Below, one piece after another: positions 43,966 through 61,217 of a stretch of DNA of 64,000 nucleotides (position 1 is the stretch's first letter; each line of letters starts with the position of its first letter). This DNA is from Deltaproteobacteria bacterium GWB2_55_19 (lineage in GTDB: Bacteria > Desulfobacterota > GWC2-55-46), in assembly GCA_001797465.1 (NCBI GenBank), contig MGPQ01000020.1, positions 62,001 through 126,000 on the forward strand. The letters run 5' to 3'. The notes beneath the pieces are model-generated. The model saw only the letters and a program-made list of their open reading frames with translations. It was not told the DNA's origin and ran no database searches. Both the position numbers and the translations under genes were made by a program.

Positions 43966-44388
43966 GTGGGGCTTTTAGCCAAAGAGGCTGACAGGTGGTT
44001 ACGGCAGGCGGAGTATGATCTGCGTGCCGCGGAGTGGAACCAGCAGGGAGGTTTTTTCGCCCCGGCGTGTTTCCTGGCGCAACAGAGCGCGGCGAAGTCT
44101 CTGCGCTCGTTCCTCTTCTTTAACGGCGAGGACGCGAGGGAGACCCGCTCCGTCGTCGAACTAATCGACCGCGCCATTACTTACGAAGAAGAGTTCAGGT
44201 CTTTCGTAGGGACTTCCACGAGCCTCGACATCTACTACAAGACCTCCCGGTTCCCGGACGCCATACCCGGCGGCATACCTGCGGACGTCATAACTGAAAA
44301 GGACTCGAAGGACGCGGTGAAGCAGGCCTCAGACATAATCGCCGTCGTCGAGAGGAAGCGGAAGGGCTTTCTGCCGGAGACGATGTGA
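43966..44388 (+). CDS. HEPN-domain protein, without partner
   Basis: A 140-residue all-helical protein. EADRWLRQAEYDLRAAEW followed by FFAPACFLAQQSAAKSLRSFLFF is the HEPN start. GTG start with GGAGG at 43956-43960. HEPN proteins are often RNases paired with a nucleotidyltransferase (MNT) antitoxin. No MNT gene is adjacent, and the usual His of the R-x4-6-H catalytic motif is not found; the place is taken by Arg in ETRSVVELID. It is more likely a nucleic-acid or nucleotide-binding accessory than a toxin. Confidence 0.85.
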   Translation: MGLLAKEADRWLRQAEYDLRAAEWNQQGGFFAPACFLAQQSAAKSLRSFLFFNGEDARETRSVVELIDRAITYEEEFRSFVGTSTSLDIYYKTSRFPDAIPGGIPADVITEKDSKDAVKQASDIIAVVERKRKGFLPETM

Positions 44389-44411: not shown

Positions 44412-45191
44412 TTGCCGGTGCCTGACGCCCTCTTGATAGTGCCTTTTCTGTTCGGGGCTGTTGTGGGGAGTTTCCTGAACGTCTGCATCTGCCGCCTCCC
44501 GGAAGGGGTCTCCGTCGTCTTCCCGCCGTCCCGGTGTCCCGCGTGCGGGGCGGGCATCCCCTTCTATTATAATATCCCGATACTCGGCTGGTTCATCCTC
44601 AGGGGCCGTTCCGCCTGTTGCGGTGCTCCCCTTTCTTTCAAGTATCCGCTCATCGAGGCCGTGACCGCGGTCTTCGCAGTCCTCCTTGCCGTAAGGTTCG
44701 GATACGGGGCCGAGCTCTTCGTCTACTTCACATTTGTCTCAGCGCTCATCGTCGTCACCTTCATCGATCTCAAGCACCAGATAATCCCGGACGTCATCAG
44801 CCTCCCCGGCATCGCCGTAGGGCTCATTCTGTCGTGGGTCATGCCCGTCGGCATAGTCGACGCGCTCATTGGCGTTGCCATTGGAGGAGGCATACTTTTC
44901 GGCATAGCCGCGGCCTACCTCCTCCTTACCGGCCAGGACGGCATGGGAGGCGGCGACATAAAACTCCTCGCCATGATAGGCGCCTTTCTCGGGTGGAAGG
45001 GTGTTATCGTGACGCTCCTTCTTGGGTCGTTCCTCGGGGCGGCGACAGGCGTCATTTTCATGGTCTTTGCCGGAAAGGGGGCGAAGTTCCCCATACCCTT
45101 CGGGCCGTTCCTCGCCGCAGGGGCGCTCGCGTACCTATTTTTCGGTGAAGAGCTCATTAACTGGTACATAATAAGGGCCGTCGGTCCTTAA
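44412..45191 (+). CDS. pilD: Prepilin peptidase / N-methyltransferase PilD
   Basis: A 259-residue inner-membrane aspartyl protease that cuts and methylates prepilins. The methylase-side start FGAVVGSFLNVCICRLPEG and the aspartates D119 (FIDLKHQIIPD) and D182 (GGGDIKLL) are intact, with about seven membrane segments. The usual two CxxC pairs are changed: C42 and C45 are present, but the second pair is C69-C70 side by side. TTG start at 44412 (or GTG at 44418). It precedes the pilS-pilR pair and the prepilin cluster, as expected. Confidence 0.95.
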   Translation: MPVPDALLIVPFLFGAVVGSFLNVCICRLPEGVSVVFPPSRCPACGAGIPFYYNIPILGWFILRGRSACCGAPLSFKYPLIEAVTAVFAVLLAVRFGYGAELFVYFTFVSALIVVTFIDLKHQIIPDVISLPGIAVGLILSWVMPVGIVDALIGVAIGGGILFGIAAAYLLLTGQDGMGGGDIKLLAMIGAFLGWKGVIVTLLLGSFLGAATGVIFMVFAGKGAKFPIPFGPFLAAGALAYLFFGEELINWYIIRAVGP

Positions 45192-45288
45192 GCGGAGGGG
45201 GCGATGGGCCCGCAAGGCGTTTATGCGGCTCGTGTAGGAATTGGCGGAAGACGCCTGATCCCCGGGAAAGCCGGACTAAGGACCAGTT

Positions 45289-46821
45289 ATGAGCGGTCTT
45301 AAGATGAAGCGCCAGCTTGGCATAAGGTTTCAGCTCATCGCCGGGATAGTCATCATGACGCTCTCCGGCATCGTCCTCATCGGGGCCTTGAGCGCGGTCA
45401 TCATCGAGAGGACGGCCTTCAATTGGAAGGTGAACGAGGCCGAGAGGCTCGTCTCCTTCCTCCGCGCATCTTACCCATCCGAGACCGTTGACCCGTCTAT
45501 CGGCTACCGCCATTTTGTCAGGACTTTGAAGGAGTTTGGCGCGGCCGAATACGCCATAGTCGGCCCCGGCGGGCGCCTCCTCGCCGGGGAGGCGAAGAAG
45601 CGCGAGTACGACGGCGGGGATGTCGTCTATTCAGGTGAGTCTCTGACTATCAAGAGGCTCGGGGGCGGGTGGTTCCGCGGCATGGGGGACGCCCTCCACG
45701 TTACCGCGCGGCTTAAGCAGTCCGGGAAGGACGGATACATGACCTTCACGCTGCCCCTCTCAGGCGCGAGCGAGGACCTCTCCAGGGTCAGGAGGTTCCT
45801 CCTGATATACGCCCTCCTCGACGCCGTCGTTATCGTCGTCTTCGGCGCCTATTTCCTCTCCCGCTACATAGTCGCCCCGATAAGGGCGCTCGACAAGGCG
45901 GCTACCCGCATAGCCGGAGGCAACCTGGATGAGAGGGCCGAAGCTCATGTCGATAACGAGGTCGGGTCCCTTGCCGCGTCCTTCAATACAATGGCCGATA
46001 GGCTCTCATCCGAGATTAAGAGCCTCGAGCGGGCGAACGAGGAGCTCAACACCGCGCAGGAGGAGTTGCTGCGATCTTCCACGCTCGCGGTCGTCGGAAG
46101 GCTCGCGGCGGGGATCGCCCACGAGGTAGGCAACCCGCTCGGCGCGGTCAACGGCTACCTCGACATCCTCGCCAGGGGCGGCTTGAGCAAAGACGAGGAA
46201 AGGGATATCCTTGAGAGGAGCGTAAGGGAGGTCTCCCGCATCGACTTCATCGTAAGGGAATTCCTTGAGATATCGAGGCCCGCTTCCCGCCCGCTTGAGC
46301 CTGTCGACATGAACTCGGTCGTAAGGGAGACTGTTACGACGCTTGAGGCGCACAAAGATTTCAGGGGAATAGACACGGCCTTTGTGTTAAAAGAGGGACT
46401 GCCTCCGGTTTTGATCGACGCGAGGAAGCTCCGGCAGGTATTCATGAACATACTCATGAACGCGGCCCATTCTTTCGCCGGCGTCGAGGGCGCAAAAAAG
46501 GTGACGATAGAGTCCGGGACCGAGACGAGGACAGTTGCGAGGAGGAGACGCAGGGACGACCCCCGGTTCTCGCCCTCTCCTGAAAGGGATTTTGTCTTCG
46601 TCCGCGTAACCGACATGGGCTCCGGCGTCAGCACGGAGGCCGCCTCCAGGATATTCGAGCCTTTCTACACGACCAAGGGGCCGTCCATGGGCACGGGGCT
46701 CGGGTTGTTCGTATCGCAGTCGATAATAAATACGTACGGCGGGGAGATAACGCTTTCGTCAAGCGAGGGCGCCGGGGCGTCGTTTACGGTCTCGCTTCCC
46801 GTCCCCGTTGAAAAGGCGTAA
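45289..46821 (+). CDS. Sensor histidine kinase, PilS/NtrB-like
   Basis: A 510-residue kinase: a membrane segment near 18-40, a periplasmic domain of about 125 residues, a second membrane segment near 172-192, HAMP, then RLAAGIAHEVGNPLGAVNGYL with the phosphorylated His and an ATPase domain (NILMNAAHSF, DMGSGV, MGTGLGLFV). The HEVGNPL box and lack of a CA-lid insertion resemble NtrB-type kinases that signal to sigma-54 activators. The partner is the response regulator 12 bases downstream. Together they probably sense membrane or pilin status. Confidence 0.92.
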   Translation: MSGLKMKRQLGIRFQLIAGIVIMTLSGIVLIGALSAVIIERTAFNWKVNEAERLVSFLRASYPSETVDPSIGYRHFVRTLKEFGAAEYAIVGPGGRLLAGEAKKREYDGGDVVYSGESLTIKRLGGGWFRGMGDALHVTARLKQSGKDGYMTFTLPLSGASEDLSRVRRFLLIYALLDAVVIVVFGAYFLSRYIVAPIRALDKAATRIAGGNLDERAEAHVDNEVGSLAASFNTMADRLSSEIKSLERANEELNTAQEELLRSSTLAVVGRLAAGIAHEVGNPLGAVNGYLDILARGGLSKDEERDILERSVREVSRIDFIVREFLEISRPASRPLEPVDMNSVVRETVTTLEAHKDFRGIDTAFVLKEGLPPVLIDARKLRQVFMNILMNAAHSFAGVEGAKKVTIESGTETRTVARRRRRDDPRFSPSPERDFVFVRVTDMGSGVSTEAASRIFEPFYTTKGPSMGTGLGLFVSQSIINTYGGEITLSSSEGAGASFTVSLPVPVEKA

Positions 46822-46833
46822 GGACATGAGGGG

Positions 46834-48231
46834 ATGAGGATACTCATCATAGACGACGAAGACTCGATGCGCCACATGCTCTCGGTGATCCTGAAGCGCG
46901 AGGGCTATGAGCCGGTCTCGGTCGCCGAGGCCGCGAAGGCGCTCGATCTCCTTGAGGCCGACGACTTCGACTTCATACTCTGCGACATAAAGATGCCTGG
47001 CCTCGACGGGCTCTCGTTCCTCAAGGCCCTGAAGGACAGGGGGCTTGCGCGCACAGTCATCATGATGAGCGCCTACGGGACGTTCGAAACGGCTCTCGAG
47101 TGCATGAAGCTCGGCGCCTACGACTATATCTCAAAGCCGTTCAAGGCCGACGAGATAGTGCTGACGGTCAAAAAGGCCGAGGAGAGGGAGAAGCTCAAGA
47201 GGGAGAATACGCGCCTTAAGGCGGATGCGCTCGAAGAGTACGACTTTACGAACATATTTACGATTGACGGGAATATGCTCTCCATACTCGGCCTCGTTCG
47301 GAAGGTCGCGGATTACACCACCTCAGTCCTCATACTCGGGGAATCCGGCACCGGCAAGGAGCTCGTCGCCAGGGCCATACACTACGGTGGACAGAGGGCG
47401 CAGAAACCCTTTGTAACCGTCAACTGCGGGGCGATCCCCGGCGCGCTCCTTGAGAGCGAGCTCTTCGGGCACGTGAAGGGGGCGTTTACCGACGCGCACA
47501 GGACCAAGACAGGGCTCTTCCAGGAGGCAAACGGCGGGACGATATTCTTAGACGAGGTGGGGGAACTCCCGATGGAGCTCCAGGTGAAACTGCTCCGCGT
47601 ACTTCAGGAGGGGGAAATAAGGAAGGTCGGGGACACAAAGTCGGCCAAGGTAGACGCGCGGGTCGTAGCCGCGACCATTAAGGACCTGAAAGACGAGATA
47701 CGAAAGGGGGCGTTCAGGGAGGACCTCTATTACAGGCTGAACGTCATAGAGATAAAGCTCCCGACGCTACGTGAGAGGCCCTTTGACATACCCGGGCTCG
47801 CCGCGCGCTTCGTCGAAAAGTATTCAAGGAAGTTCGGCAAGCCTCCGAAGAGGGTATCGGAGGAGGCGTTAGCGATTCTCGCCGGGTATGCATGGCCGGG
47901 GAACATCCGGGAGCTTGAGAACGTGATTGAGCGGGCTATGATACTCGAGGAGACCGATACCATCAGGCCTAAGTCCCTGCCCATAGCCGGGCCGAACGCA
48001 GGGGGCAGGGCGTCATTGCAGGCGGCCGATGCCCTGGAGAGCCAGCTTTCGTCCGCTACGCCGCGCCGACCCTCAGACGACCTCTCCATCAAGCGCGCCC
48101 AGGAGGCGATGGAGAAAGACCTTATAAAAAGGGCGCTGGAAAGGACCCGCAACAACAAGACAAAGGCCGCAGAGATACTGGAAATAAGCCACAGGGCCCT
48201 CCTCTACAAGATAAAAAATTATGGACTATGA
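46834..48231 (+). CDS. Sigma-54-dependent response regulator, PilR/NtrC-like
   Basis: A 465-residue regulator: receiver (phospho-acceptor D51 in LCDIKMPG), AAA+ domain (Walker A GESGTGKEL, GAFTDA loop in place of the usual GAFTGA, and DEVGELPMELQVKLLRVLQ), and a C-terminal Fis-type helix-turn-helix (NNKTKAAEILEISHRALLYKI). The GAFT loop contacts sigma-54. A good sigma-54 promoter lies directly downstream before the pilin genes, a likely target. The stop codon is inside the terminator stem. Confidence 0.94.
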   Translation: MRILIIDDEDSMRHMLSVILKREGYEPVSVAEAAKALDLLEADDFDFILCDIKMPGLDGLSFLKALKDRGLARTVIMMSAYGTFETALECMKLGAYDYISKPFKADEIVLTVKKAEEREKLKRENTRLKADALEEYDFTNIFTIDGNMLSILGLVRKVADYTTSVLILGESGTGKELVARAIHYGGQRAQKPFVTVNCGAIPGALLESELFGHVKGAFTDAHRTKTGLFQEANGGTIFLDEVGELPMELQVKLLRVLQEGEIRKVGDTKSAKVDARVVAATIKDLKDEIRKGAFREDLYYRLNVIEIKLPTLRERPFDIPGLAARFVEKYSRKFGKPPKRVSEEALAILAGYAWPGNIRELENVIERAMILEETDTIRPKSLPIAGPNAGGRASLQAADALESQLSSATPRRPSDDLSIKRAQEAMEKDLIKRALERTRNNKTKAAEILEISHRALLYKIKNYGL

Positions 48232-48336: not shown

Positions 48337-48819
48337 ATGTCTATAAAAGATGATTCGGGTATCTCATTGGCTGAGCTCCTTGTGGTGATAGCGTTGATGG
48401 GCGTAATAACCGTCATTGCCGTACCCGCGATAGTAGGCCAGATGTCGCATTTGAGGCTTACGAGCTCGGTAAGGGACATTTCTACCGAGCTGAACGCCGC
48501 GAGGCTCAAGGCCATATCCAATAACACCATGTACAGGGTCCAGTTTACGCTCAACTCCGGCGCCGCCGATACGTACAGGCTCTACGTCTACGACGCGACC
48601 CTGGACTCCTGGTCGGCCGAGACTTCGAGGACGACGAGGTCTCTTGAGGGCGGGATAAACATAAGCACTCCCTCCGCTGACTTCAATGTGGACTTCCGCC
48701 CGAACGGGTCTTCGACCGGGGCCTCCATATGCGTTGACAACACCGGGACCTCCGGCGACAGGATGGAGGTCACGGCGCAGACTTCAACAGGCATGATAAC
48801 GATTACTACAGGGTGCTGA
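48337..48819 (+). CDS. Minor prepilin, FimT/GspH-like
   Basis: A 160-residue prepilin. A short leader MSIKDDSG is cut before Ile in G-ISLAELLVVIALMG; Glu at +5 is present. A GspH-type C-terminal domain follows (RDISTELNAARLKAISNNTMYRVQF, then strands). Ile at +1 instead of Phe is less common but accepted by PilD. First gene after the sigma-54 promoter. Confidence 0.9.
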   Translation: MSIKDDSGISLAELLVVIALMGVITVIAVPAIVGQMSHLRLTSSVRDISTELNAARLKAISNNTMYRVQFTLNSGAADTYRLYVYDATLDSWSAETSRTTRSLEGGINISTPSADFNVDFRPNGSSTGASICVDNTGTSGDRMEVTAQTSTGMITITTGC

Positions 48820-48821
48820 AA

Positions 48822-49307
48822 ATGGGTAAGCGCGGGTTCACTCTTATAGAAGTCCTTATTGCGATGACCATACTTTCCATTGGCATACTCGGGGTAGCCG
48901 GGCTCGCCGGGACGGTCATCAGGTCATCGGGTTACAGCCAGGCGCTCACTCAGGCGACCAACATAGCCCAGGAAAAGCTCGAGACGCTCGTAAGCGTTGA
49001 CTTTTCCAACATACAGGCTACCGACACCGCCACCGCGCGCACTGACTTGAGGAGGACCTGCACGCAGACCGACTTTACCGCCTCAAAACCCGTATACACA
49101 TGCGTGCCCACGACCGCCACAGTGACCGTCGGCGGCAAATCATATACCTGGGGATACACCGTCTCATACGTAGACCTTGACGCAAGCGGCACGGCAAGCG
49201 AGAACTCGGACGGACTGAAGAGGATAGACCTTACCGTATCCTGGACAGACGCCGTCTGGAGGGCTACAAAGAGCATCACGGCCGTAACCATGAGGACGAG
49301 GGGTTAA
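48822..49307 (+). CDS. Minor prepilin, PilV-like
   Basis: A 161-residue prepilin with leader MGKRG cut before FTLIEVLIAMTILSIGILG; Glu +5 present. The C-terminal domain has one Cys pair (RRTCTQTDF and YTCVPT). A GTG at 48813 would make three extra residues and overlap the previous stop; ATG at 48822 has AGGGTG upstream and gives a leader typical of PilV. It sits 4 bases before the giant pilin gene. Confidence 0.9.
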   Translation: MGKRGFTLIEVLIAMTILSIGILGVAGLAGTVIRSSGYSQALTQATNIAQEKLETLVSVDFSNIQATDTATARTDLRRTCTQTDFTASKPVYTCVPTTATVTVGGKSYTWGYTVSYVDLDASGTASENSDGLKRIDLTVSWTDAVWRATKSITAVTMRTRG

Positions 49308-49311
49308 TACT

Positions 49312-52300
49312 ATGAAGAACTGCGGCAAGGGCCTGACAGGAAGACGGACCGGGGCGGCGCGCGGCGCTGACCGCGGCTTCACGGTAGTGGAACTGATCAT
49401 ATCGATGTTCATAGTCGGGATAGTCGCCGCGGCTATTTTCACGCTCTACAACTCTTTTTACAGCGCGACCCGCTCGCAGGACCTGCTTTTGGAGGCTCAG
49501 CAGAACGCGAGGGTCGGCATAGACCTCATGGAAAGAGAGCTCGTCAACGCGGGCTACGACGCCGGCACCGCCGACATCTTAACCGAGGCGACGGCTAACT
49601 CCGTGGAGTTCACATACACCGACCCGTCCGACAATACGACCGTAAGCCCGACCGCGGGGCAGAGGCTCAAGGTCAAGTACTCGCTCAGTACCGAGGCAGG
49701 CATCCAGTACCTGCAGAGGACCGAGAAGGTCATGCCCGACGGCACCCCGGCCACCGAGAAGGTCATACCGTACGTCGACCAGTCCGGTGGTCTCACCCTG
49801 ACCTATTACGACGTCGACGGCGCACTGATAGACTACACCAGCATTGACGACGCAGGCGAGCAGTCGAACAGGAACGGCATTAAGTTCATTTCCGTCAGCC
49901 TGAAGACTACCGCAAAGGCCGCCGTGCAGGGCACTTCAGAGGTCAAGACGTTTACGCTCGACACGCACGTGATGCTCCGGAACATCGGGGTAGGCGCAAC
50001 GTCCGCTGATACGACCGCCCCGGCGGCCCCGACCGGCGTCCAGGTCAGGGACCCGGGGATATGCGCCAGGCTCAAGGTCAAGTGGACGAAGAACTCCGAG
50101 GGAGACATCGCCGGTTATAGGATATATTACGGGTCCGCGACCGGCACGTACACGGGCATACTCAACGTCCCGACGACTGTGCTCACCGGCTCGACCTACT
50201 CCTGCACGACCGTCTCCAGCACGATCGAGTGCACGATATTCCCGACGTCCCCGTCGCTCACCTATACGCCGTCCGACCCGTCGGGCGGGTCAGGCGCCAC
50301 GTACTTTATCGCTGTCAAGGCCTACGACAACTCCTATAATTACAGCGAGTATTCCTCCGAGGTGTCAGGGAGCCCGGCTACGAGCAACGCGACATTCGAC
50401 ACCGGCTCCGACGACTCCACCCTGAACCCGGTGAAACCAGCGGTCGTAACCGGCCTTTCCGCCGTTGACGGCGCAACCGACGGGCAGGTGGCGCTTTCGT
50501 GGAGCGCGTACAATACTACGGACAACCCGGACGTCGTGGGCTTCAGGATATACAGGTCCACTGCCCCGTTCACGGCCTATCCTGTGGACCCGGCGTCCGC
50601 CGGCATAGACTGGATAGCCGGAGAGCCCGGGAGCGGCAAGCCCGAGATCTCGCAGACCTCGACCGCTTATACCGACGTCGGCCCGAGTCTTGCTGGTTGC
50701 ACGGTCTACTACTACGCCATAGCCCCGGTCAACTGCGACGCTACACTCATATCGGACAGCGGCGGCGACCCGGACAGCGAGAAATACCTCCAGACCAACT
50801 ACGCGGCTACCTGCGGCAACGGCTCGACCGCCTGCACGCCGGGCACCGGGTTCTCCGCCGTCTCGGGGTCGGACACGGCCCCGAACGAGACGACGGCCCC
50901 TGACGCGCCTGTCATAGACGCGAGGGCCGGATGGAAGAGGGTCGCGCTCTCGCTCACTCAGCCCGCGTCCACTGACCTCGACCAGACATGCTTTTATGAG
51001 AACGACAGCGCCACGTACCCGGCGCTCCTTACCGACACCGGGTCCTACCCGAAGGTGAGCAATTGTTATCAGGTGAACACCGGCTCGACCCCTAACGCGA
51101 GGCTCGTGCCGGATTCCGGAGGCATATTCACTTCTTCCGAGCTTGCACCGGGGCAGTCCACGTCCTTCTGGCACGATTCCATGACCGTCGAGGACCCTGG
51201 GACGCCGTCTCTCGCCGAGACAGGGACTTATTCATACAGGGCCGTCTCGTTCGATCTCTGCGGCAACGGCTCGCCGTACACGAGCGCGCAGGCGACTACC
51301 ATACTCTGCGGCGAGGACCCGGCCTCCGGCGAAAAACCGCCTGCGGTGACAGCTGTCTCGGCCTCGTGCTGTTCGAACCCGGTCTCCCTAACGTGGACGG
51401 GCGTTCCCAGCGATACCGGCTCGCCGTCCACGCCGACGAACCCCTACGACCTCGCGGGATACAGGGTGTTCAGGTCGACGTCAGTGGACTTTACCGGCTC
51501 GACGATGGTCTCGGGTGCCGCGCCGTACTGGGGCTCGACATACAGCGACACGTCGGTATCCGACGGCGGGACGTACTATTACAGGATAGTCTCCACCGAT
51601 TGCCCGTACGAGAGGAACAACCCCTCGGAGGCGACGATAAAGAGCGACATGCTGAGCGGGTATCTCAATTCCGTAACCGTTGGGCCGGTGACGCCCGGGC
51701 AGATAGACAGGGATGAGAAGTGCGAGGACCCGGTCGCGCCGACCGACAACTCATGCACAAAGGACGACCACAGGGAGGCGCTGACCGGCGTTGACGTCAA
51801 CAACTCGACTGGGACCGGCAACAGCACTACTACGCCGAAGAGCGAGTACACCCACGAGACCGTTACCATGTACTTGAGCAACACCGCCGCCGGCGCGATG
51901 ACCATCCAGAACATTAGCGTAAGCTGGGTCAACTCAGGCGCGTACCTGCGGGAGATAAAGATCGGAGGCGGAAGGAGCGGCATCACCGCAATCGATACCA
52001 ACATAGCCGCTGGCGCGACAGCCACAGTGACCGGCAACGACCCTTACACCAGGGCGGTTACTGACGCTACCATCACCACAGGGACGATAACGGCAGGGGC
52101 CCGTTATGTCCCCATAACCTTCAAGTTCAAGGACGCGAGCGACTCAGCCGTCGACATGCGTGACGACCAGCTGTTGATAACGATCAAGGCCCGGAACGAC
52201 AGCACCTCCACCACACAGTGCCTGTCGTACATGACCGTTTCCAGGGGCCTCGAAGGGGTCTCCGTGCCGTTCGGCCCGTCGATATCCGCGACCCAGCAGG

Positions 52301-53730
52301 ACAAACCGGCCTCCCCGACCTTCAGTTATGCCGTCCCCGGGTCGTCCGGCAGTAACACCGTGCCTTCCGGCTCTGTTGCGCCGATAGAGGCGCCCTCGAG
52401 CGTTACGGTCACGGTCTCGGCGAGCATACAGGGCAATACGACCAACCAGGCTACGGGCCTTAAAGTGGCGGTCTCGTCGGCTACACTCTATTACAAGGCC
52501 ACGGCAAATACAGTCACCACGGCGCCTACCTCAGGGTATACATCGGTCTCGATGACGAACGCGAGCGGCAATACATGGACCGGCGCCATTCCGGCGAACG
52601 ACGGGTTCAGGCTCTGGTATTACATAGTCGCCAAGGACGCGGACGGCAACTGGGACCGCGACCCTGAGAAGACCGAGGGGGCCTATGTCTATGACCAGGG
52701 CGAGTTCGACGTATGCCTTGTAACCCCTAACGCGCCGACGAGCCTACAGGCCTCGCCGAGCGGGTCCGACGTGGCCCTTGTCTGGACCGCGCCGACCACA
52801 TACACGAACGGCGCTACTATCGACACCGGGCTCGACCCGATACAGTACAGGATATACAGGGGAGGGACGCAGATAGGGTCGGACCAGGCAGGGACGACTT
52901 ATTCCGACACGGGCCTCGCCAACGGCGTCTACGGCTACTATGTGAAGGCGATAAACTCCTGCGCCGACCCGTCGCCGAACGTCAGCGCTGAGTCCAACAC
53001 GGCCTCTGCGTGCGTCGGGGCCACCGGACAGGCGACCATTACAGTCACCCCCACGTCCATTTACAGGGGGGAGAGCTATACCGTCACAATAGTAGACTGC
53101 CTCGCCATAAACGGCGCGTACTCGGCTACGACTGAAGTCATAAACACGTCGAGCGGCTTTACCGGGTTTACGAACACATCCACCGCGCCCGGCTCCTACA
53201 ACCCGACGATAACCGAGACCGGCCCGGCGACCGGCACGTTCACCAAGACCATTACGACGACGAGCGACGTGACTGACTCAACAAAGCTCCTGACGCTCGC
53301 TACAGACACCGTGACCGTCACCTACCCGTATGCGAGTCCGTCGTCCAGGACCGTAAGCGTCGTAGTTGACCCGTGCACGAACACCCCGAAGGCCCCGACG
53401 GGCTTCACCGGGACGATTGTAAGCAACAACGCGAACCTCTCGTGGACGGCGGTCACGCAGAACACCGACAACTCGGCGATAACCGACCTCGTTGGATACA
53501 AGATATACGAGAGGGTCTGCGCCAAGAACAAGACCAACTGCACAGGCTCCGACATAGTCGCGGAGTGGTTTCTGAGGACTACGGTAGCGGCCGGCACGAC
53601 TACGGCGAGCCTCGGGCCGGACCAGGGCGCATGGAACCAGAGGATATACTACTTCAAGGCGACGGCGTACGACTCCTGTTCAACGCCGGTGGAGAGCGCC
53701 TACTCATCCACTTGGAACGAGACAAACTGA
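49312..53730 (+). CDS. Giant PilW-like prepilin fused to fibronectin type III modules
   Basis: A 1472-residue protein. A 22-residue leader ends in G before FTVVELIISMFIVGIVAA (Glu +5), as in PilW, and the pilin part reaches about residue 230 (EAQQNARVGIDLMERELVNAG is typical PilW). Then come FN3-like modules at about 235-352, 374-500, 530-665, 677-784, 1142-1237 and 1360-1472, many opening with APTG or APDAP and including GYRIYYG or GYRVFRS. Between 785 and 1135, and 1238-1355, are other beta-rich, Ser/Thr-rich parts. Usual PilW proteins are 200-350 residues. There is a regular supply of Cys in pairs. It should be inserted near the pilus tip, and could bind carbohydrate or protein. Confidence 0.88.
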   Translation: MKNCGKGLTGRRTGAARGADRGFTVVELIISMFIVGIVAAAIFTLYNSFYSATRSQDLLLEAQQNARVGIDLMERELVNAGYDAGTADILTEATANSVEFTYTDPSDNTTVSPTAGQRLKVKYSLSTEAGIQYLQRTEKVMPDGTPATEKVIPYVDQSGGLTLTYYDVDGALIDYTSIDDAGEQSNRNGIKFISVSLKTTAKAAVQGTSEVKTFTLDTHVMLRNIGVGATSADTTAPAAPTGVQVRDPGICARLKVKWTKNSEGDIAGYRIYYGSATGTYTGILNVPTTVLTGSTYSCTTVSSTIECTIFPTSPSLTYTPSDPSGGSGATYFIAVKAYDNSYNYSEYSSEVSGSPATSNATFDTGSDDSTLNPVKPAVVTGLSAVDGATDGQVALSWSAYNTTDNPDVVGFRIYRSTAPFTAYPVDPASAGIDWIAGEPGSGKPEISQTSTAYTDVGPSLAGCTVYYYAIAPVNCDATLISDSGGDPDSEKYLQTNYAATCGNGSTACTPGTGFSAVSGSDTAPNETTAPDAPVIDARAGWKRVALSLTQPASTDLDQTCFYENDSATYPALLTDTGSYPKVSNCYQVNTGSTPNARLVPDSGGIFTSSELAPGQSTSFWHDSMTVEDPGTPSLAETGTYSYRAVSFDLCGNGSPYTSAQATTILCGEDPASGEKPPAVTAVSASCCSNPVSLTWTGVPSDTGSPSTPTNPYDLAGYRVFRSTSVDFTGSTMVSGAAPYWGSTYSDTSVSDGGTYYYRIVSTDCPYERNNPSEATIKSDMLSGYLNSVTVGPVTPGQIDRDEKCEDPVAPTDNSCTKDDHREALTGVDVNNSTGTGNSTTTPKSEYTHETVTMYLSNTAAGAMTIQNISVSWVNSGAYLREIKIGGGRSGITAIDTNIAAGATATVTGNDPYTRAVTDATITTGTITAGARYVPITFKFKDASDSAVDMRDDQLLITIKARNDSTSTTQCLSYMTVSRGLEGVSVPFGPSISATQQDKPASPTFSYAVPGSSGSNTVPSGSVAPIEAPSSVTVTVSASIQGNTTNQATGLKVAVSSATLYYKATANTVTTAPTSGYTSVSMTNASGNTWTGAIPANDGFRLWYYIVAKDADGNWDRDPEKTEGAYVYDQGEFDVCLVTPNAPTSLQASPSGSDVALVWTAPTTYTNGATIDTGLDPIQYRIYRGGTQIGSDQAGTTYSDTGLANGVYGYYVKAINSCADPSPNVSAESNTASACVGATGQATITVTPTSIYRGESYTVTIVDCLAINGAYSATTEVINTSSGFTGFTNTSTAPGSYNPTITETGPATGTFTKTITTTSDVTDSTKLLTLATDTVTVTYPYASPSSRTVSVVVDPCTNTPKAPTGFTGTIVSNNANLSWTAVTQNTDNSAITDLVGYKIYERVCAKNKTNCTGSDIVAEWFLRTTVAAGTTTASLGPDQGAWNQRIYYFKATAYDSCSTPVESAYSSTWNETN

Positions 53731-53741
53731 CCGGGGGCCTT

Positions 53742-55031
53742 ATGAAGATGCCTGAGACGACCAATAAGGGAGACAAGACGGGGCAGGAGGGGTTTGTCCT
53801 GATACTCGCCCTCGTCACCATGCTCGCGATGACGCTCATCGGTTTGAGCGTCATCATGAGCTCTACGACCGACCTTCAGCTCGCGAGGAACGACCGCGAC
53901 GCCAAGCTCGCGTTCCAGCTCGCCGAGGCCGGCATAAACGAGGCCTCCGCGAGGCTCCACCTGTCGTCCTCCAACGCCAGGTATGTAGGCGAGGTCGAGG
54001 GCGAATCCGGTTACAGGACTGTAAGCTGGAACGCCGCCAACGCGCTCGGCAAGGACTTCGGCTACAACGTCGGCGGCAACAGGAACAGCGCGGACAACCT
54101 CAACTACACGGTCAACATAAGCTATCTTGTCGAGGGCAACACGGAGAACTACTGCGACAGCAACAACACCGCCGACAACGCCCCCTTGACCGCGACGGTC
54201 CCGCCGGCTAGTTGCCCCAACAGCCCGGCGGAGGTCGTGATGTACGGCCAGGACTTTAACCTCGACGCGAGCTTGACGTATATCGAGTACGGTCTGCTCC
54301 CGGTCTATGAGATTACCTCCACTGGCACCTCCAACGGCGTGACAAGGACGGTAGTAGCCTACCTCGGCGAGAGCAACCTGAATACCGACTCTCAGTACCC
54401 GATATTCACCAACGGATGCGTGGACGCGAGCGGCGTACCCAATACCCTCACAGGCGACCCGTCGGTGCCGGGTAGCGACGTCGTCATGCAGGCGACCGGG
54501 TGCGCGTGCGACCCTCAGCTGAGCCTCTCATGCAGTACAAGCACCGACCCGGTGGACATGAACACATATTTAGGCGACACGCTCGCCAACATCGCGACCT
54601 ACTCCGACGAGTACCACTCGTGCAAGAGCGCGGGATGCAATACCGCCGGGGACGACATCCCCTCGAACGGCAGGCTCGATAACGGCGTCGTCCAGAACTG
54701 GGAGGGTGCCGACCCGACCGAGGGGGTGCTCCTCTTTATCGACAACTCCGGCGGCGAGGACGCCACGATAGGCGGCAACGTCAGCGGCGAGGGGATACTC
54801 ATCGTTACCGGCAACCTCTCCATAAGCGGCAACATCACCTGGGAGGGGCTCATCTACGTACTCGGGACCCTTACGGTCTCGGGCACTGTGGACGTCCACG
54901 AGGGGGGGATGATGACAGGATCGACCGTGCTCCTTAACGGCAACGTCACCGTAAACTACGACAGGGAAGAGCTCCTTGAGATGTCGAGGCAGACGTCCAC
55001 CTCGGCGAAGATAGTCTGGAAGAGGCTCTGA
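53742..55031 (+). CDS. PilX-like prepilin with a large ectodomain
   Basis: A 429-residue protein. The leader ends EG before FVLILALVTMLAMTLIGLSVI, the PilX_N pattern; +5 is Leu and not Glu, as in PilX and GspK tip-type pseudopilins. LAFQLAEAGINEASARL follows. The ectodomain (about 100-300) is Asn- and Cys-rich; residues about 325-400 are a run of short turns with Gly-Asn (GGNVSGEGILIVTGNLSISGN), resembling a beta-helix. The reading frame is open far upstream, but the ATG at 53742 after GGGGGCC is the only start that gives a prepilin leader. A strong terminator follows. Confidence 0.88.
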   Translation: MKMPETTNKGDKTGQEGFVLILALVTMLAMTLIGLSVIMSSTTDLQLARNDRDAKLAFQLAEAGINEASARLHLSSSNARYVGEVEGESGYRTVSWNAANALGKDFGYNVGGNRNSADNLNYTVNISYLVEGNTENYCDSNNTADNAPLTATVPPASCPNSPAEVVMYGQDFNLDASLTYIEYGLLPVYEITSTGTSNGVTRTVVAYLGESNLNTDSQYPIFTNGCVDASGVPNTLTGDPSVPGSDVVMQATGCACDPQLSLSCSTSTDPVDMNTYLGDTLANIATYSDEYHSCKSAGCNTAGDDIPSNGRLDNGVVQNWEGADPTEGVLLFIDNSGGEDATIGGNVSGEGILIVTGNLSISGNITWEGLIYVLGTLTVSGTVDVHEGGMMTGSTVLLNGNVTVNYDREELLEMSRQTSTSAKIVWKRL

Positions 55032-55366: not shown

Positions 55367-55564
55367 ATGGCCAGAAATAAACTAAAAAATATACGAGAGA
55401 ACCTGCTTCTGAGCAAATCCGAACTCGCTCGCAAGGCAGGCATCTCGCCGCTTACCGTAGACAGGATAGAGCGCGGCTTCCCATGCAGGGTGGACACCAA
55501 GAGGAAGATAATACACGCTCTGGGGCTGAAGGTAACGGACAAGGGAAAGGTCTTTACGGACTGA
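55367..55564 (+). CDS. Small XRE-family helix-turn-helix protein
   Basis: A 65-residue protein that is a complete XRE helix-turn-helix and little more: IRENLLLSKSELARKAGISPLTVDRIERG is the two-helix core, followed by a helix with KRKIIHALGL. It likely binds DNA as a dimer. It lies 10 bases before pilM and right after the operon promoter, so autoregulation of the pilus operon is likely but unproven. Confidence 0.9.
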   Translation: MARNKLKNIRENLLLSKSELARKAGISPLTVDRIERGFPCRVDTKRKIIHALGLKVTDKGKVFTD

Positions 55565-55574
55565 CCGGGGGTAT

Positions 55575-56633
55575 ATGAATCTGCCGTTTTTGAAGAAAAA
55601 GGACGCCGTCGCCTTCGACATAGGCTCCAATTCCATAAAGCTCGTCCAGATGAGCCAGACAAAGAAGGGATGGGAGCTTACCAAGCTCGGCATGGCCGAA
55701 CTCCCGCCCGAGGCGATCGTCGACGGCTCCATAATCGACTCCATGACGGTCACAAACACGCTTAAGGACCTCATCAGGGAGCACGGGGTCAAGGTCAAGG
55801 ACGCCGTCTCCTCGCTCACCGGACACTCAGTCATCATAAAAAAAGTCAGTTTCCCCGCCATGTCCGAGGAAGAGCTCGCCGATTCCATCCAGTGGGAGGC
55901 CGAGCAGTACATCCCGTTCCCGATAACCGACGTCAACATCGATTTTCAGATACTCGGCGCCGACACCGAGGGCAGGGGCCAGATGGACGTAATGCTGGTC
56001 GCGGTCAAGAAGGACGTCATAAACGACTATACGAACGTCATCAAGGAGGCGGGGTTGAACCCCGTCGTCATCGACGTCGACTCCTTCGCACTCGAGAACA
56101 TGATGGAGATAAACTACCCGGTGGCCCCAGGCGAGAACATCGCGATGGTGAACATCGGCGCCTCCATCACCTCCATAAGCGTCATATTCGCCGGGCTCAC
56201 CATATTCACCCGTTCGATACCGATGGGCGGCAACCAGTTCACCGAAGAGATACAGAGACAGCTTAACGTGAGTTTCAAGGACGCCGAGGAGATGAAGACC
56301 GGGAAGAAGGCAGAGGGCGAGACGCCGATAGCCCCGGCTGTCGAGTCTATCGCCTCGAACCTCACCTTCGAGGTGAAGAGGTCGCTGGACTTTTTCCTCG
56401 GCGGCTCCCAGGGTTCTTACGTCAGCAAGATATACCTCTCCGGCGGCGGCTCGCTGGCGCCGGGGCTTAAGGACCTCATGCAGGAGAAGACCACCATCCC
56501 GGCGGAAGTGGTGAACCCGTTCAAGAATGTTGAGGCCAACCCCAAGCACTTCGACAAGGAAAAGCTCAAGGACTCGGCCCCGTTCTTCGCAGTGGCCGTG
56601 GGGCTTGCCACGCGGAGGTTCGCAGACAGATGA
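55575..56633 (+). CDS. pilM: Type IV pilus assembly ATPase-like protein PilM
   Basis: A 352-residue actin-fold protein. AFDIGSNSIKLVQM is the phosphate-1 region, VNIGASITSISV the second, and YLSGGGSLAPGLKDLM the adenosine site. PilM sits in the cytoplasm and binds the PilN N-terminal tail, linking the motor to the periplasmic ring. Its 3' end overlaps pilN by 4 bases. Confidence 0.97.
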   Translation: MNLPFLKKKDAVAFDIGSNSIKLVQMSQTKKGWELTKLGMAELPPEAIVDGSIIDSMTVTNTLKDLIREHGVKVKDAVSSLTGHSVIIKKVSFPAMSEEELADSIQWEAEQYIPFPITDVNIDFQILGADTEGRGQMDVMLVAVKKDVINDYTNVIKEAGLNPVVIDVDSFALENMMEINYPVAPGENIAMVNIGASITSISVIFAGLTIFTRSIPMGGNQFTEEIQRQLNVSFKDAEEMKTGKKAEGETPIAPAVESIASNLTFEVKRSLDFFLGGSQGSYVSKIYLSGGGSLAPGLKDLMQEKTTIPAEVVNPFKNVEANPKHFDKEKLKDSAPFFAVAVGLATRRFADR

Positions 56634-57202
56634 TCCGCATAAACCTCCTGCCCGTAAGGGCCGCAAAGAAAAAGGAATCGCTCCGGTTCCAGCTGACGGT
56701 AGCCGGTCTCGTGAGTTTTCTCGTCATCGTACTGGCCCTCGGCGCGTACTTTACGGTGAGGAACGAGGCGGGCGGGCTGAAGGACCAGCTGGCGCAGGGC
56801 GAACAGGAGATCTCGGAGCTTAAAAAGAAGATAGGCGAGCTCTCGAAGATAAAAGAGCAGAAGAGGATAGTAGAGGAGAAACTGAAGGTCATAACCAGTC
56901 TCGAGGCCGCGAGGACCGGCCCTGTCGAGCTCTTCAGGAAGATAGGCGAGGCCATACCTGAGAGGGCCTGGCTCGCCTCCATGAAGGACGAGGGGGCGGC
57001 TGTCGTCGTCAAGGGCTACGCCTCCGACGACGAGGTGGTCGCGGACTTCATGAGGGGGCTTCAGAAGTTCAAGGACCTCGGGGTGGTCGAGCTGGAGGTC
57101 GCCCAGAGGCTGATCGAGAAGGAAACCGGCTCGGACCTCGTGGGCTTCACCATAAGGCTCGAGAAGACGATCGAGAAGCCCCAGCCCAAGGAGAAGAAAT
57201 AA
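56630..57202 (+). CDS. pilN: Type IV pilus alignment protein PilN
   Basis: A 190-residue inner-membrane protein. It starts MIRINLLPVRAAKKKE, the conserved INLLP tail bound by PilM, then a membrane segment (about 24-44), a coiled coil (about 48-85) and a ferredoxin-like periplasmic domain (WLASMKDEGAAVVVKGYA). It forms a heterodimer with PilO. Confidence 0.96.
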   Translation: MIRINLLPVRAAKKKESLRFQLTVAGLVSFLVIVLALGAYFTVRNEAGGLKDQLAQGEQEISELKKKIGELSKIKEQKRIVEEKLKVITSLEAARTGPVELFRKIGEAIPERAWLASMKDEGAAVVVKGYASDDEVVADFMRGLQKFKDLGVVELEVAQRLIEKETGSDLVGFTIRLEKTIEKPQPKEKK

Positions 57203-57203
57203 C

Positions 57204-57812
57204 ATGGCCCTTGCGCTGCCTAAGATAAATCCGGAAATAATAATGAAGCTCCCGCTCCCGAAGCGGGCGGCGATACTCGCGGCGGTGAACGTCGTGGTCG
57301 TCGGGCTCATCTACTGGTTCCTCATAGGCCCCAAGTACGCTGAGGTCAAGGACCTCCGCGTACAGCTCCAGGACCTGAACGTCAAGCTGAACGAGAACAG
57401 GCAGATAGCCGCCGACATCCCGAAGTTCATTCAGGAAAAGGACGAGATGGAGCAGAAACTCAAGGCCGCGGTCGCCCAGCTCCCGAACGAAAAGGAGATC
57501 CCCGACCTCATAGACAGCATAAGCGAGGCCGGGCAGAGGGCGGGCCTCAAAATACTGCTCTTTAAGCCCGAACGCGAGAACAAGAAGGGCTTTTACGCGG
57601 AGGTGCCGGTCTCGATGATGGTGGAGGGCAGGTTTGAGAGCCTCTACGACTTCAGCGACAAGGTAGGCAAGCTCCCGAGGATAGTGAACATCAGCGGCAT
57701 GGACATATTATCGATTGCGCACAAGAACAGGATCCCACAGCTCAAAGCGAACTTCACGTCCACGACCTTCAGGTTCATACCGATGCAGGGCGAAGGAGAG
57801 CCTAAGAAATAA
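57204..57812 (+). CDS. pilO: Type IV pilus alignment protein PilO
   Basis: A 202-residue protein with one membrane segment (about 27-44, ILAAVNVVVVGLIYWFLIG), a coiled coil (about 48-90) and a C-terminal ferredoxin-like domain (VPVSMMVEGRFESLYDFSDKVGKLPRI, residues about 130-155). It starts one base after the pilN stop and overlaps pilP by one base (TAATG). Confidence 0.95.
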   Translation: MALALPKINPEIIMKLPLPKRAAILAAVNVVVVGLIYWFLIGPKYAEVKDLRVQLQDLNVKLNENRQIAADIPKFIQEKDEMEQKLKAAVAQLPNEKEIPDLIDSISEAGQRAGLKILLFKPERENKKGFYAEVPVSMMVEGRFESLYDFSDKVGKLPRIVNISGMDILSIAHKNRIPQLKANFTSTTFRFIPMQGEGEPKK

Positions 57813-58333
57813 TGGCAAGGAGATTCGTAATACTCTTTTTAGCGGCGTCCCTCTCGCTCGCGATTACGGCCTGCAAGAAGGAAGAGCCCAAGCCGGAAGA
57901 GCCCATTAAAAAGGCCCAGCCTGCGGCGCAGGCCGCCCCGCAGGCCGCCCCAGCTTCGATAGACGCATCAGCGAAGGCGGATGCGAGTGTAGAGGCCTCC
58001 AGGCGCAGGAACCCGTTCCAGAGCCACATCCTTCTGCTCCGCGGGACCGCGGACGGCCCGAGGAAGATAAAGGGGCCGCTCGAATGCTGCGAGCTGGCCC
58101 TCTTCAAGGTGCACGCAATAGTAGCCGCCAGAGACGGCGCGTTCGCGCTCGCGCAGGCCCCCGACGGCAAGAGGTATGTCGTAAGGAAGGGCGACGTCAT
58201 CGGCACCAAGGAAGGCAAGGTCATAAAGATAGACGGCAGGGCGATAACGGTAAGGGAGTTCACGAGGGACCAGGAAGGCAAGGTCATCTCGACAGATGAC
58301 ACCGATTTGAAGCTCCCTGCCGAAAGGAGATAG
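57812..58333 (+). CDS. pilP: Type IV pilus lipoprotein PilP
   Basis: A 173-residue lipoprotein (signal ending LAITAC, Cys20). A Pro/Ala/Lys-rich linker (about 22-60) leads to a beta-domain with PLECCELALFKVHAIVAARDGAFALAQAPDGKRYVVRKGD, the PilP domain that links PilNO to the PilQ secretin. A Cys pair (CC in LECCEL) is unusual but may be structural. Confidence 0.94.
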   Translation: MARRFVILFLAASLSLAITACKKEEPKPEEPIKKAQPAAQAAPQAAPASIDASAKADASVEASRRRNPFQSHILLLRGTADGPRKIKGPLECCELALFKVHAIVAARDGAFALAQAPDGKRYVVRKGDVIGTKEGKVIKIDGRAITVREFTRDQEGKVISTDDTDLKLPAERR

Positions 58334-58409
58334 CCGTCCGGCACGGCCGCGGTCAGTTGTTTTTTTCGTTTTCCGGTTTGATCCAAGTAAGAGAAGCTCT
58401 GGAGGGCTT

Positions 58410-61217
58410 ATGCGTATGACAGACGATCGGTTGAGGCACGGCCTCATCGGCTCCATCCTTGCCGGCGCGCTTATCTTCACTGGTTGCGCCTCAACGGGGC
58501 CGAAGGACATAAAGGGGGACGTCGCGCCATCGAGCGTAGCCGGGGCTCCTGAGCCCCAAAAAGAGGCGGCCGCCCCGAACGTCGTCTCTGTCGAGTACAT
58601 AAACGTAGTCGGCGACGGCGACAGGGTCATGATAGCCACGACCGGGCCCGTCAAGTTTACGGCCTTCAGGCTATCCGAGCCCTCAAGGCTCATACTCGAC
58701 CTCCCGGGCGTCAACCTCGACAAGGTCCCGGCCTCTCTCTCCGTGAACAACGCGTTCGTTGGAGAGATAACGTCGGCGACCTACGGGGAAGGCAAGGACA
58801 TAGGCAGGGTCGTCATAGGGCTTAAGGACGGGGTCGACCACGACGTCAAATCCGGCGATAACAGCATACTCGTCAGCCTCGCCGCCCCTGTTTCAGCCGT
58901 TGCCCTCCAGCCCGTTGCTGAGACGGTGAAGGCCCCGGCGCAGGCCGCACTTGTTGAGCCGATAAAGGTCGAAGACCTTGCCCCCCAGGCGAAGCCGATG
59001 AAGCAGGCCTCAGCCGTCGTCAGGGTGGCCGAGTCAAGGGACGGAGAGAACACCGTCATAAGGATAGTGAGCGACGGGCTTCTCGGGAATTACAGCACGT
59101 TCGATCTGGACAGCCCCGGGAGGATCGTCATAGACGTCTGGGATGTGGACAGTTCCATCGGCAAGGACGTGGTAAGGCTTGAAGGAAAGTATCTCAAGAC
59201 CGTAAGGGTCGGGACCCACGCCGACAAGGCGCGTTTCGTCTTTGACGCGGCGGGTAAGAAGCTCCAGCCCCATTCGATAAAGCGCGTAGACGGCGAGATA
59301 GTCGTCACGATCGGGCCGAAGGTCGTGCCTGTCGTTGACGAGGCCGCGATGCCGTCCAGAAAGCCAGTCAAAAAGGCCGAGCAGGTAAAGACGGCCAAGG
59401 CGGAGAAAAACGCGGAAACTAAGAAGGAGGCCGCGGAGGCCCAGAAGGCCGCTGTGGCCGTAAGCGTTGTTGAGGGACCGAAGGCCGAGCCGGAAAAGAC
59501 CGTTGAAAAGGCCGTAACGCCCGAGAATGCATTAAGGGTCGAGAAGGTCGAGTTCAGGCGCGTCGAAGGCGCGGGCGCTCTCTCCATAGCCACGAACGCG
59601 AAGGCCGAGTACGATGTGAAAGAGTCCGCGGACGGCATGACCGTTACGATAGACATCAAGGGCGCTACAATCTCCGAGGAGCTTACAAGGACGCTGGACG
59701 CCGGAAAGCTCAATACCCCGGTCGCGACCGTCAGCTCGTTCCAGGGCGCCGCTGAGCCCAAAGAGGTCCGCGTAATAGTGAAGCTCAGGGAAAAGGCCCC
59801 GTACACGGTAACGGACGGGGACGGCACGCTTAAACTGAATTTCGCTGCGACAGCCGCCGAGACGGCGCCGGCTGTAAAGGCGCAGTCCGAAGCGGATAAA
59901 CCGGCGGATAAGGAAGCTCCCCTTCTGGCTGATAAGCGCGAGTACACGGGCGCTAAGATAGACCTCGACATGATGGACGCTAACGTCAGCGACGTGCTCC
60001 GTCTCCTTGCCGAGATAAGCAACATGAACATCATAGCCTCAGACGACGTAAAGGGCACGATATCGCTACGGCTCAAAAATGTGCCGTGGGACCAGGCCTT
60101 TGACATAATACTCCGTTCGAAGGACTTGGACAGCGTCCAGGAGGGCAACGTCATAAGGGTCGCCCCGGCCACCAAGATAAGGCTGGAGAAGGAATCCGTC
60201 CTGGCCTCCCGCAAGGCGCAGGAGAAGCTTGAGAACCTCGACACTCACTTCATCCCCATCAACTACGCCACGTCCACCGACCTCATAAAGTCGGTCCAGA
60301 GCGTGCTTACCGAAAGGGGAACGGTCACTAACGACATCAGGACGAACACCATCATAGTAAAGGACATCAAGGCCGGGGTCGAGGCGGCGAAAAACCTCAT
60401 CACCAAGCTCGACACCGCGATACCGCAGGTCCTTATAGAGGCGCGGATAGTAGAGGCCTCAACGAGCTTCGCCAGGGACTTAGGGATACAGTGGGGCCTT
60501 GATTACGGCACCGGCGGCTCCACCTCGACGCAGACTTTCGGATCGAGCGGCACGACCGGCCAGGCGACCGACAGGATGCAGACGCCGAACTCGAACATAC
60601 AGGTCTCCGGCGCAGACCAGTACGCTGTTAACCTCCCGGCCTCCGGCAACGCAGGCACGCTCGGCGCGCTCGGTTTCCTCCTCGGCAGCGCCGGTTCCAA
60701 TCCGTTCCTTCTGGACTTGAGGCTCTCGGCCGGCGAGTCTGAAGGAAGGCTCAAGACCATATCGAGGCCGAGGATCACGACGATGGACAACAAGGAGGCG
60801 AAGATCGAGCAGGGCGAGTCCATCCCCTTCGAGACGACCTCGTCGGCCGGCACCGCAACGACGTTCATCGACGCGAACTTAAGCCTGACCGTCACGCCCC
60901 ACATAACGCCTGACGGGTCGGTCCTCATGAAGATAAAGGCGTCGAGAAACTCCATAGGCACGTTCAGGACCTCAGGCGGAGAGCCTTCGATAAACAAGAA
61001 GGAGTCCTCTACCGAGGTCCTCGTGAGGGACGGCGAGACGACCGTCATAGGCGGGATAGTGATAACGGATAAGAGCGATTCCGATCAGGGCATACCGTAC
61101 CTCCAGGACATCCCGCTCATCGGATGGCTCTTCAAGTCCAAGTCCGTCTCCGACTCCCAGACCGAGCTCCTTATCTTCATAACCCCTACCATCATAAAAG
61201 ACAAGATCAAGGCCTGA
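58410..61217 (+). CDS. pilQ: Type IV pilus secretin PilQ with three AMIN domains and a lipobox
   Basis: A 935-residue outer-membrane channel. The signal has a lipobox (IFTGC, Cys26), so the N-terminus may be lipidated. Three AMIN-like domains (about 60-155, 205-310, 375-480) bind peptidoglycan; a Lys/Ala/Glu-rich linker lies between the second and third. Then come an STN/N0 domain (about 515-590), an N1-type domain (about 610-680) and the secretin core (about 690-930; GDGETTVIGGIV near the end, then PLIGWLFKS). Two AMIN domains are common; three are more than usual. A 76-base gap with a T-run separates it from pilP. Confidence 0.95.
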   Translation: MRMTDDRLRHGLIGSILAGALIFTGCASTGPKDIKGDVAPSSVAGAPEPQKEAAAPNVVSVEYINVVGDGDRVMIATTGPVKFTAFRLSEPSRLILDLPGVNLDKVPASLSVNNAFVGEITSATYGEGKDIGRVVIGLKDGVDHDVKSGDNSILVSLAAPVSAVALQPVAETVKAPAQAALVEPIKVEDLAPQAKPMKQASAVVRVAESRDGENTVIRIVSDGLLGNYSTFDLDSPGRIVIDVWDVDSSIGKDVVRLEGKYLKTVRVGTHADKARFVFDAAGKKLQPHSIKRVDGEIVVTIGPKVVPVVDEAAMPSRKPVKKAEQVKTAKAEKNAETKKEAAEAQKAAVAVSVVEGPKAEPEKTVEKAVTPENALRVEKVEFRRVEGAGALSIATNAKAEYDVKESADGMTVTIDIKGATISEELTRTLDAGKLNTPVATVSSFQGAAEPKEVRVIVKLREKAPYTVTDGDGTLKLNFAATAAETAPAVKAQSEADKPADKEAPLLADKREYTGAKIDLDMMDANVSDVLRLLAEISNMNIIASDDVKGTISLRLKNVPWDQAFDIILRSKDLDSVQEGNVIRVAPATKIRLEKESVLASRKAQEKLENLDTHFIPINYATSTDLIKSVQSVLTERGTVTNDIRTNTIIVKDIKAGVEAAKNLITKLDTAIPQVLIEARIVEASTSFARDLGIQWGLDYGTGGSTSTQTFGSSGTTGQATDRMQTPNSNIQVSGADQYAVNLPASGNAGTLGALGFLLGSAGSNPFLLDLRLSAGESEGRLKTISRPRITTMDNKEAKIEQGESIPFETTSSAGTATTFIDANLSLTVTPHITPDGSVLMKIKASRNSIGTFRTSGGEPSINKKESSTEVLVRDGETTVIGGIVITDKSDSDQGIPYLQDIPLIGWLFKSKSVSDSQTELLIFITPTIIKDKIKA

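Follow-up and report, generated by a model that had tools for sequence, protein, structure and literature searches.

A giant modular PilW alternates with a PilY1 cassette in the core type IVa pilus operon of diderm bacteria

Introduction

Minor pilins together with PilY1 prime and cap the type IVa pilus (PMC7541494). In diderm type IVa pili, PilY1 is currently regarded as a core part of the tip, essential for priming. What occupies its place in a pilus operon that has no pilY1 gene? The question is raised by a 64,000-nucleotide stretch of DNA from Deltaproteobacteria bacterium GWB2_55_19 (hereafter the window; positions 62001-126000 of the 209-kb contig MGPQ01000020.1), which belongs to a 2.6-Mb genome, G000, rated 100% complete. 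The window carries a gene for a giant PilW-type minor pilin, and an earlier note, made from the letters of the window alone, had proposed that the FN3-like part of this protein replaces PilY1 as a tip adhesin. We analysed the protein, its operon and their relatives. The giant PilW was found to belong to a cassette that alternates with a PilY1 cassette at one slot of the core operon. We give a probability of about 0.6 to the reading that, as a modular minor pilin, it stands in for PilY1 in an alternative type IVa pilus tip complex of a diderm.

Results

The giant PilW is a complete minor pilin with an added tail

The gene consists of 1,472 codons in one continuous open frame. The parts relevant to its pilin character are as follows.

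49312..53730, + strand: giant modular prepilin PilW, 1,472 amino acids (aa); from the open frame and its orthologues.
49312..49377, + strand: class III leader peptide, aa 1-22, cleaved between G22 and F23, with Glu +5 at aa 27; from the PF07963 match and the invariant G22 and E27.
49378..50001, + strand: pilin module, aa 23-230, a helix (25-82) plus a beta-sheet, corresponding to an entire short PilW; from AlphaFold and hhalign (99.5% to short PilW).

The leader, MKNCGKGLTGRRTGAARGADRG followed by FTVVE after the cleavage site, places Phe at +1 and Glu at +5. The Pfam family N_methyl (PF07963) matched aa 20-43 (E=7.7e-6, passing the family cutoff) and was also found in all 20 aligned orthologues, in which Gly22 and Glu27 are invariant. 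Residues 22-224 were aligned by hhalign with the full length of an ordinary PilW of ~300 residues (99.5%, E=2e-22), and the two share the end '-LRN'; because the match covers an entire ordinary PilW, the giant protein is an intact PilW extended by a tail. The AlphaFold model of the pilin part has a single long helix of 58 residues at 25-82 and a pilin-like sheet at 90-221. The uninterrupted frame, the leader and the PilW-like first 230 residues had all been described in the earlier note, and each description proved accurate.

The protein thus has the features of a PilW minor pilin: Gly at -1 and Glu at +5 of the leader, a hydrophobic N-terminal helix, a PilW-homologous head and an operon with FimT, PilV and PilX. 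With a complete pilin module followed by non-pilin modules in a single chain, it also has the architecture of a modular pilin. It is not a PilY1: it has a prepilin leader of its own, it is only an alternative occupant of the slot, and Pfam gave no match in it to the PilY1 beta-propeller (PF05567), which the PilY1 proteins of relatives do match.

The tail is built of FN3-like and other beta modules

Behind the pilin module follow ~1,240 residues in nine beta modules, six of them FN3-like (one weakly supported) and three unrelated.

50008..50382, + strand: D1, FN3-like, aa 233-357; hhalign to D9, E 1.6e-10; FN3 by Foldseek.
50425..50880, + strand: D2, FN3-like, aa 372-523; hhalign to D4 and D9, E ~1e-10.
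50887..51315, + strand: D3, FN3-like, weakest by sequence, aa 526-668; hhalign to D9 69%, E 4e-5; beta-sandwich in the AlphaFold model.
51316..51615, + strand: D4, FN3-like, aa 669-768; hhalign to D9, E 7e-12.
51853..52206, + strand: D5, beta-rich, non-FN3 by sequence, aa 848-965; AlphaFold; no hhalign match to the FN3 modules.
52381..52719, + strand: D6, beta-rich, non-FN3 by sequence, aa 1024-1136; AlphaFold and hhalign.
52720..53016, + strand: D7, FN3-like, aa 1137-1235; hhalign to D9, E 1e-15.
53017..53373, + strand: D8, beta-rich, aa 1236-1354, lowest conservation over all orthologues; AlphaFold, hhalign and conservation analysis.
53374..53727, + strand: D9, FN3-like, aa 1355-1472; hhalign; predicted local distance difference test (pLDDT) ~86-93.

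D1, D2, D4, D7 and D9 are mostly homologous to one another in hhalign (best pair E 1e-15, some pairs only ~1e-4). D3 reached best probabilities of 69% and 59%, and D5, D6 and D8 showed no hhalign homology to the FN3-like modules. The Pfam family fn3 stayed below threshold in the window protein itself; it was detected in 7 of the 20 orthologues (best 3.7e-7) and in a distant orthologue (1.5e-17). Foldseek matched the first half of the giant PilW to tandem FN3 domains of contactin and fibronectin (E ~1e-15 to 1e-12), with low template-modelling scores for the whole model, as expected of flexible multi-domain chains. Judged by these orthologue matches, profiles and structure searches, an FN3 identity is clear for five modules and weak for one.

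In the AlphaFold model of residues 1-775 (20 natural sequences; mean pLDDT 77), the helix and the pilin-type sheet are followed by beta-sandwiches in a row. The model of residues 668-1472 (mean pLDDT 73) adds more beta modules and contains two linkers of low confidence; the low predicted template-modelling scores mean that the positions of the modules relative to each other are not fixed by the models. The structure prediction called for earlier gave the expected row of beta-sandwiches behind the pilin, and the count of six FN3-like modules among other beta-rich ones stands, with 526-668 as the weak member.

Eleven cysteines are invariant in the giant PilW. Among close orthologues, most tail modules are 58-74% identical, vs 52% for the pilin part, and this good conservation argues against a rapid diversification of the tail. 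A calcium-binding reading of the conserved motif DADGNWDRDPE was dropped, as an ordinary immunoglobulin (Ig)/FN3-type strand motif would fit too. Searching PDB with the giant PilW sequence gave no match.

Orthologues of the giant PilW

Full-length orthologues were found in ~20 relatives (35-76% identity) in independent assemblies, including a one-contig genome. Most genera of the family are represented, as are several other families of the class; the named records are metagenome-assembled genomes of uncultured 'Deltaproteobacteria', many from groundwater (e.g. GWA2_55_10, UBA5799). Another family, f26, has three genomes with full-length orthologues of 1,386-1,407 residues, adjoined by fimT, pilV and long pilX where these are visible. 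The giant PilW tree is broadly congruent with the pilM tree, so its descent is mostly vertical.

Two cassettes alternate at one slot of the pilus operon

The gene order in the window is pilD-pilS-pilR-fimT-pilV-pilW-pilX-(small helix-turn-helix gene)-pilM-N-O-P-Q-aroC. The genes around the giant pilW are as follows.

44412..48231, + strand: left flank of the slot, with pilD (prepilin peptidase), pilS and pilR.
48337..48819, + strand: FimT/GspH-type minor pilin (PF12019).
48813..49307, + strand: PilV (TIGR02523, 53.2 bits, cutoff 52.2).
53742..55031, + strand: long PilX, 429 aa, with PilX_N (PF14341, E 7e-12) and a weak bactofilin-like C-terminal region (PF04519, E 0.006, sub-threshold).
55575..61217, + strand: right flank of the slot, with pilM, pilN, pilO, pilP and pilQ (AMIN plus secretin).

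To compare this locus across the class, the regions around pilQ, pilD/S/R, giant PilW or PilY1 were extracted from the class genomes and their gene content was scored. Two cassettes were recognized. Cassette B, that of the window, reads fimT-pilV-giant pilW (1,073-1,895 aa)-long pilX (~400-560 aa). Cassette A reads, with some variation, pilV-pilW (~300 aa)-pilX (~150-220 aa)-pilY1 (~940-1,860 aa)-two small genes-fimT. Restricted to cassettes with a physical link to pilD/S/R or pilM, the count gave 43 anchored slots between pilDSR and pilMNOPQ: 23 held B, 20 held A and none held both. Genome G027 was left out of this count because its contig lacks pilD/S/R and pilM. A third slot state was seen in genome G055, where a 260-residue PilW (L069 8630-9409) and a long PilX lie in the same operon with no detectable PilY1.

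On the pilM tree, the state of the slot changes between A and B 11 times, and well-supported branches alone require at least 7 changes, in a mapping that includes one B row, G027, assigned from its unanchored contig. The clearest case is a pair within one genus, G018 (A) and G009 (B). Their flanking DNA is 89-91% identical as far as ~120 bases past pilR and, on the other side, from ~400 bases before pilM; between these points nothing is alignable, and the cassettes are non-homologous. The slot cassette of G018 resembles the unlinked PilY1 cassette of G009, which lies ~745 kb away in that genome (80% over 6.6 kb), and in the PilY1 tree the slot copy of G018 groups with the unlinked copies from its genus. 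A move or exchange of a cassette at the slot would be the simplest reading of this pair.

Long PilX pairs with giant PilW wherever both are visible, and short PilX with PilY1. The long PilX of the window has no Glu +5, likewise a feature of PilX/GspK-type top subunits (PMC7541494).

PilY1 is absent from the window genome

No PilY1 was detected in G000, either by the PF05567 family search or with the PilY1 protein of a congener as query, in agreement with the remark of the earlier note that PilY1 is missing here. The protein query works, since it was positive in G002 and G018; a PilY1 missed through weak sensitivity of the hidden Markov model was thereby rejected. In 14 class genomes with a completeness of at least 90%, giant PilW is the only one of the two.

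In the survey of the phylum, PilY1 was present in 150 of 297 genomes. It occurred in 2/15 genomes with a PilW-type frame of at least 1,000 residues vs 92/118 other PilW-matching genomes (Fisher p=1.5e-6, uncorrected for phylogeny); no more than about five families contribute these giant frames, and the counts were tallied by hand. Most, not all, of the giant frames in the loci read open with a clear prepilin leader.

Unrelated giant PilWs outside the class carry binding-type modules

The window protein has only its pilin start in common with the giant PilWs of families f33, f56 and f96 and of a second f26 gene. Their other parts include Big_2, Big_1/invasin-D3-like modules, an H-type lectin (G082, E=1.4e-9) and a laminin-G-like stretch. 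A search of 13 genomes from f33, f56, f96 and f26, one of which, G175, holds only a fragment, found no PilY1 even at E<=0.1. A PilY1 propeller hidden within these giant PilWs was rejected at the Pfam level for those tested. Four loci (L173 6328-12114; L177 6817-13095; L179 518-6043; L172 3903-8942) encode giant PilW-type prepilins of 1,680-2,093 residues in genomes with no PilY1; they bear Big, lectin or laminin-G-like modules, and several adjoin giant PilX-like proteins of ~640-780 residues.

Other genes of the locus and the genome

Directly upstream of pilD, at 43966-44388, lies an open reading frame (ORF) of 140 residues that looks HEPN-like by eye; an ORF of ~140 residues stands at the same place in many relatives, whichever cassette they carry. 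A small ORF between pilX and pilM (55367-55564) resembles an XRE-type helix-turn-helix protein by eye, and the stretch upstream of pilM is part of the flank that is conserved between G018 and G009. G000 encodes PilB- and PilT-type ATPases. Several further prepilin clusters (G000:C12 and G000:C17; L071-L082, L184-L191) and four PilB/GspE-type ATPases were observed, and this genome therefore has more than one type IV filament system.

Discussion

In the explanation that we favour, giant PilW, FimT, PilV and long PilX would together make up an alternative complex that primes a retractile type IVa pilus and forms its tip. On assembly, the giant PilW would be threaded by the pilus through the PilQ secretin, and the string of modules would be displayed at the pilus tip and bind a surface. 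When cassette B fills the slot, the tail would thus take over the outward-facing job of PilY1, most likely adhesion. Location at the tip, a role in priming, adhesion and ligand binding are what we infer for the giant PilW, whereas its architecture, conservation and operon, the interchange of the cassettes and the lack of PilY1 are observations. A precedent is Streptococcus sanguinis, which has no PilY1 and whose tip effectors are modular pilins (PMC9934059).

Several observations weigh against this explanation. Seven class genomes, two of them in the same genus as G000, carry giant PilW (cassette B) together with an unlinked PilY1 cassette A, which rules out a strict genome-wide exclusion of PilY1 by giant PilW. 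Within the class, the genome-wide negative association is weak (Fisher p=0.06), and a test on phylogenetically independent pairs had six pairs, too few to reach 0.05, and was partly circular, as PilY1 is part of how the PilY1-slot state is defined. G055 indicates that a type IVa pilus slot is possible with a short PilW and without PilY1. Moreover, the best-conserved modules include FN3, a domain that is often merely a spacer, and no ligand-binding or catalytic domain of known type was found in the giant PilW. The replacement of PilY1 proposed in the earlier note thus holds at the slot; because seven genomes have both, it does not hold for every genome, and some relatives, G055 among them, have neither. 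Likewise, a pilY1 elsewhere in the genome, which that note had named as a refutation, is missing from G000 and present in two of its congeners, and the comparison of long PilWs with pilY1 that it suggested showed PilY1 to be rarer beside a giant PilW across the phylum (2/15 vs 92/118).

The most serious rival is that the tail fills only the structural role of PilY1: it would complete the PilX/PilW tip, for instance by strand donation, or plug the secretin and stop retraction, with no ligand outside. PilY1 is needed for priming and plugs the secretin (PMC7541494), beta-strand complementation between PilX and PilY1 is predicted to be conserved (PMC13190605), and PilX is altered and longer in the giant-PilW cassette. 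However, ~1,240 residues far exceed the size required of a plug or a donated strand, G055 copes with a 260-residue PilW and no PilY1, and unrelated giant PilWs bear lectin- and Ig-type modules. Because those proteins carry recognizable binding modules, the tail of the window PilW may by analogy be an effector rather than a plug, which is the best indirect argument that we have. We regard a purely structural role as unlikely.

Less probable still is a pair of optional tip sets, with giant PilW as an environment-specific extra instead of a stand-in for PilY1, and the loss of PilY1 in G000 as incidental. The seven relatives with both sets fit this idea. The unlinked PilY1 cassettes of giant-PilW genomes (L062, L064, L065, L066, L067) usually adjoin a PilR/NtrC-like regulator gene of their own, which suggests separate control of the second tip set. 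In Myxococcus xanthus, several tip clusters serve one machine (PMC7541494). Against it stand the 14 class genomes with giant PilW only and the lack of detectable PilY1 in every giant-PilW genome searched outside the class.

A release of the module string by proteolysis, or its retention on the cell surface as a secreted or matrix protein with the pilin part as a mere export anchor, is very improbable. Strings of FN3 modules are common in secreted bacterial proteins, but every full-length orthologue keeps the pilin part and the tail in one frame, and the gene lies in an operon with minor pilins and the pilus machine. Finally, an assembly fusion, a further refutation named beforehand, or a chance long frame is refuted by the ~20 full-length orthologues in independent assemblies, one of them a single-contig genome.

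The alternative tip complex with giant PilW could also be part of a wider pattern. In a diderm type IVa pilus, giant PilW and long PilX may replace the PilW-PilX-PilY1 tip set completely and be exchangeable with it, pilus tips in this lineage may evolve as whole cassettes are swapped at a single slot of the core operon, and giant PilWs with adhesin-type modules, with PilY1 gone, may have had more than one origin in the phylum; we put this proposal forward tentatively, at slightly less than even odds. If whole clades do use giant PilW, the priming role of PilY1 must be replaceable, and a comparison of A with B would reveal the minimal needs of a tip complex, notably what completes PilX without PilY1. 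With the G018/G009 pair as a natural swap experiment, this replaceability can be tested directly.

How does the window protein relate to known systems? The principle of the modular pilin, FN3-bearing ones included, is already known (PMC8179133), so calling this an undescribed system, as had been done, was too strong. We found no direct description of a giant PilW or of a PilY1-less diderm tip complex in the open-licence literature, and one may exist elsewhere; what we did not find described is a giant modular PilW alternating with a PilY1 cassette at the core type IVa pilus locus of diderms. Modular pilins in InterPro with an N-methylation pilin start and FN3 domain(s) are similar in kind: IPR003961 is among the 15 commonest modular-pilin architectures, given without clear function, and the most extreme multi-module example quoted has 860 residues (PMC8179133). 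ComZ of Thermus and CofB of enterotoxigenic Escherichia coli are also minor pilins enlarged by extra beta modules and proposed to lie at the tip (PMC8179133); their modules differ, CofB presents a separate adhesin, and ComZ is linked to DNA binding. The PilY1/PilC tip adhesin with FimU-PilV-PilW-PilX (PMC7541494, PMC13190605) shares the operon position, the minor-pilin partners and the large multi-module build. PilY1/PilC, however, is a separate non-pilin protein that binds PilX, whereas the window PilW has no PilY1 beta-propeller and is attached by its own pilin helix. The same modular principle is seen in PilB and PilC of S. sanguinis (PMC8179133, PMC9934059), in which a pilin module with a class III leader bears a grafted C-terminal functional module; they are proposed adhesive effectors at the tip, as the window PilW may be, in a system without PilY1. 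They come from a monoderm and carry one grafted module each (von Willebrand A or lectin), whereas the window PilW is much larger, carries nine modules, and belongs to a diderm type IVa pilus locus, at a slot where a PilY1 cassette is the alternative.

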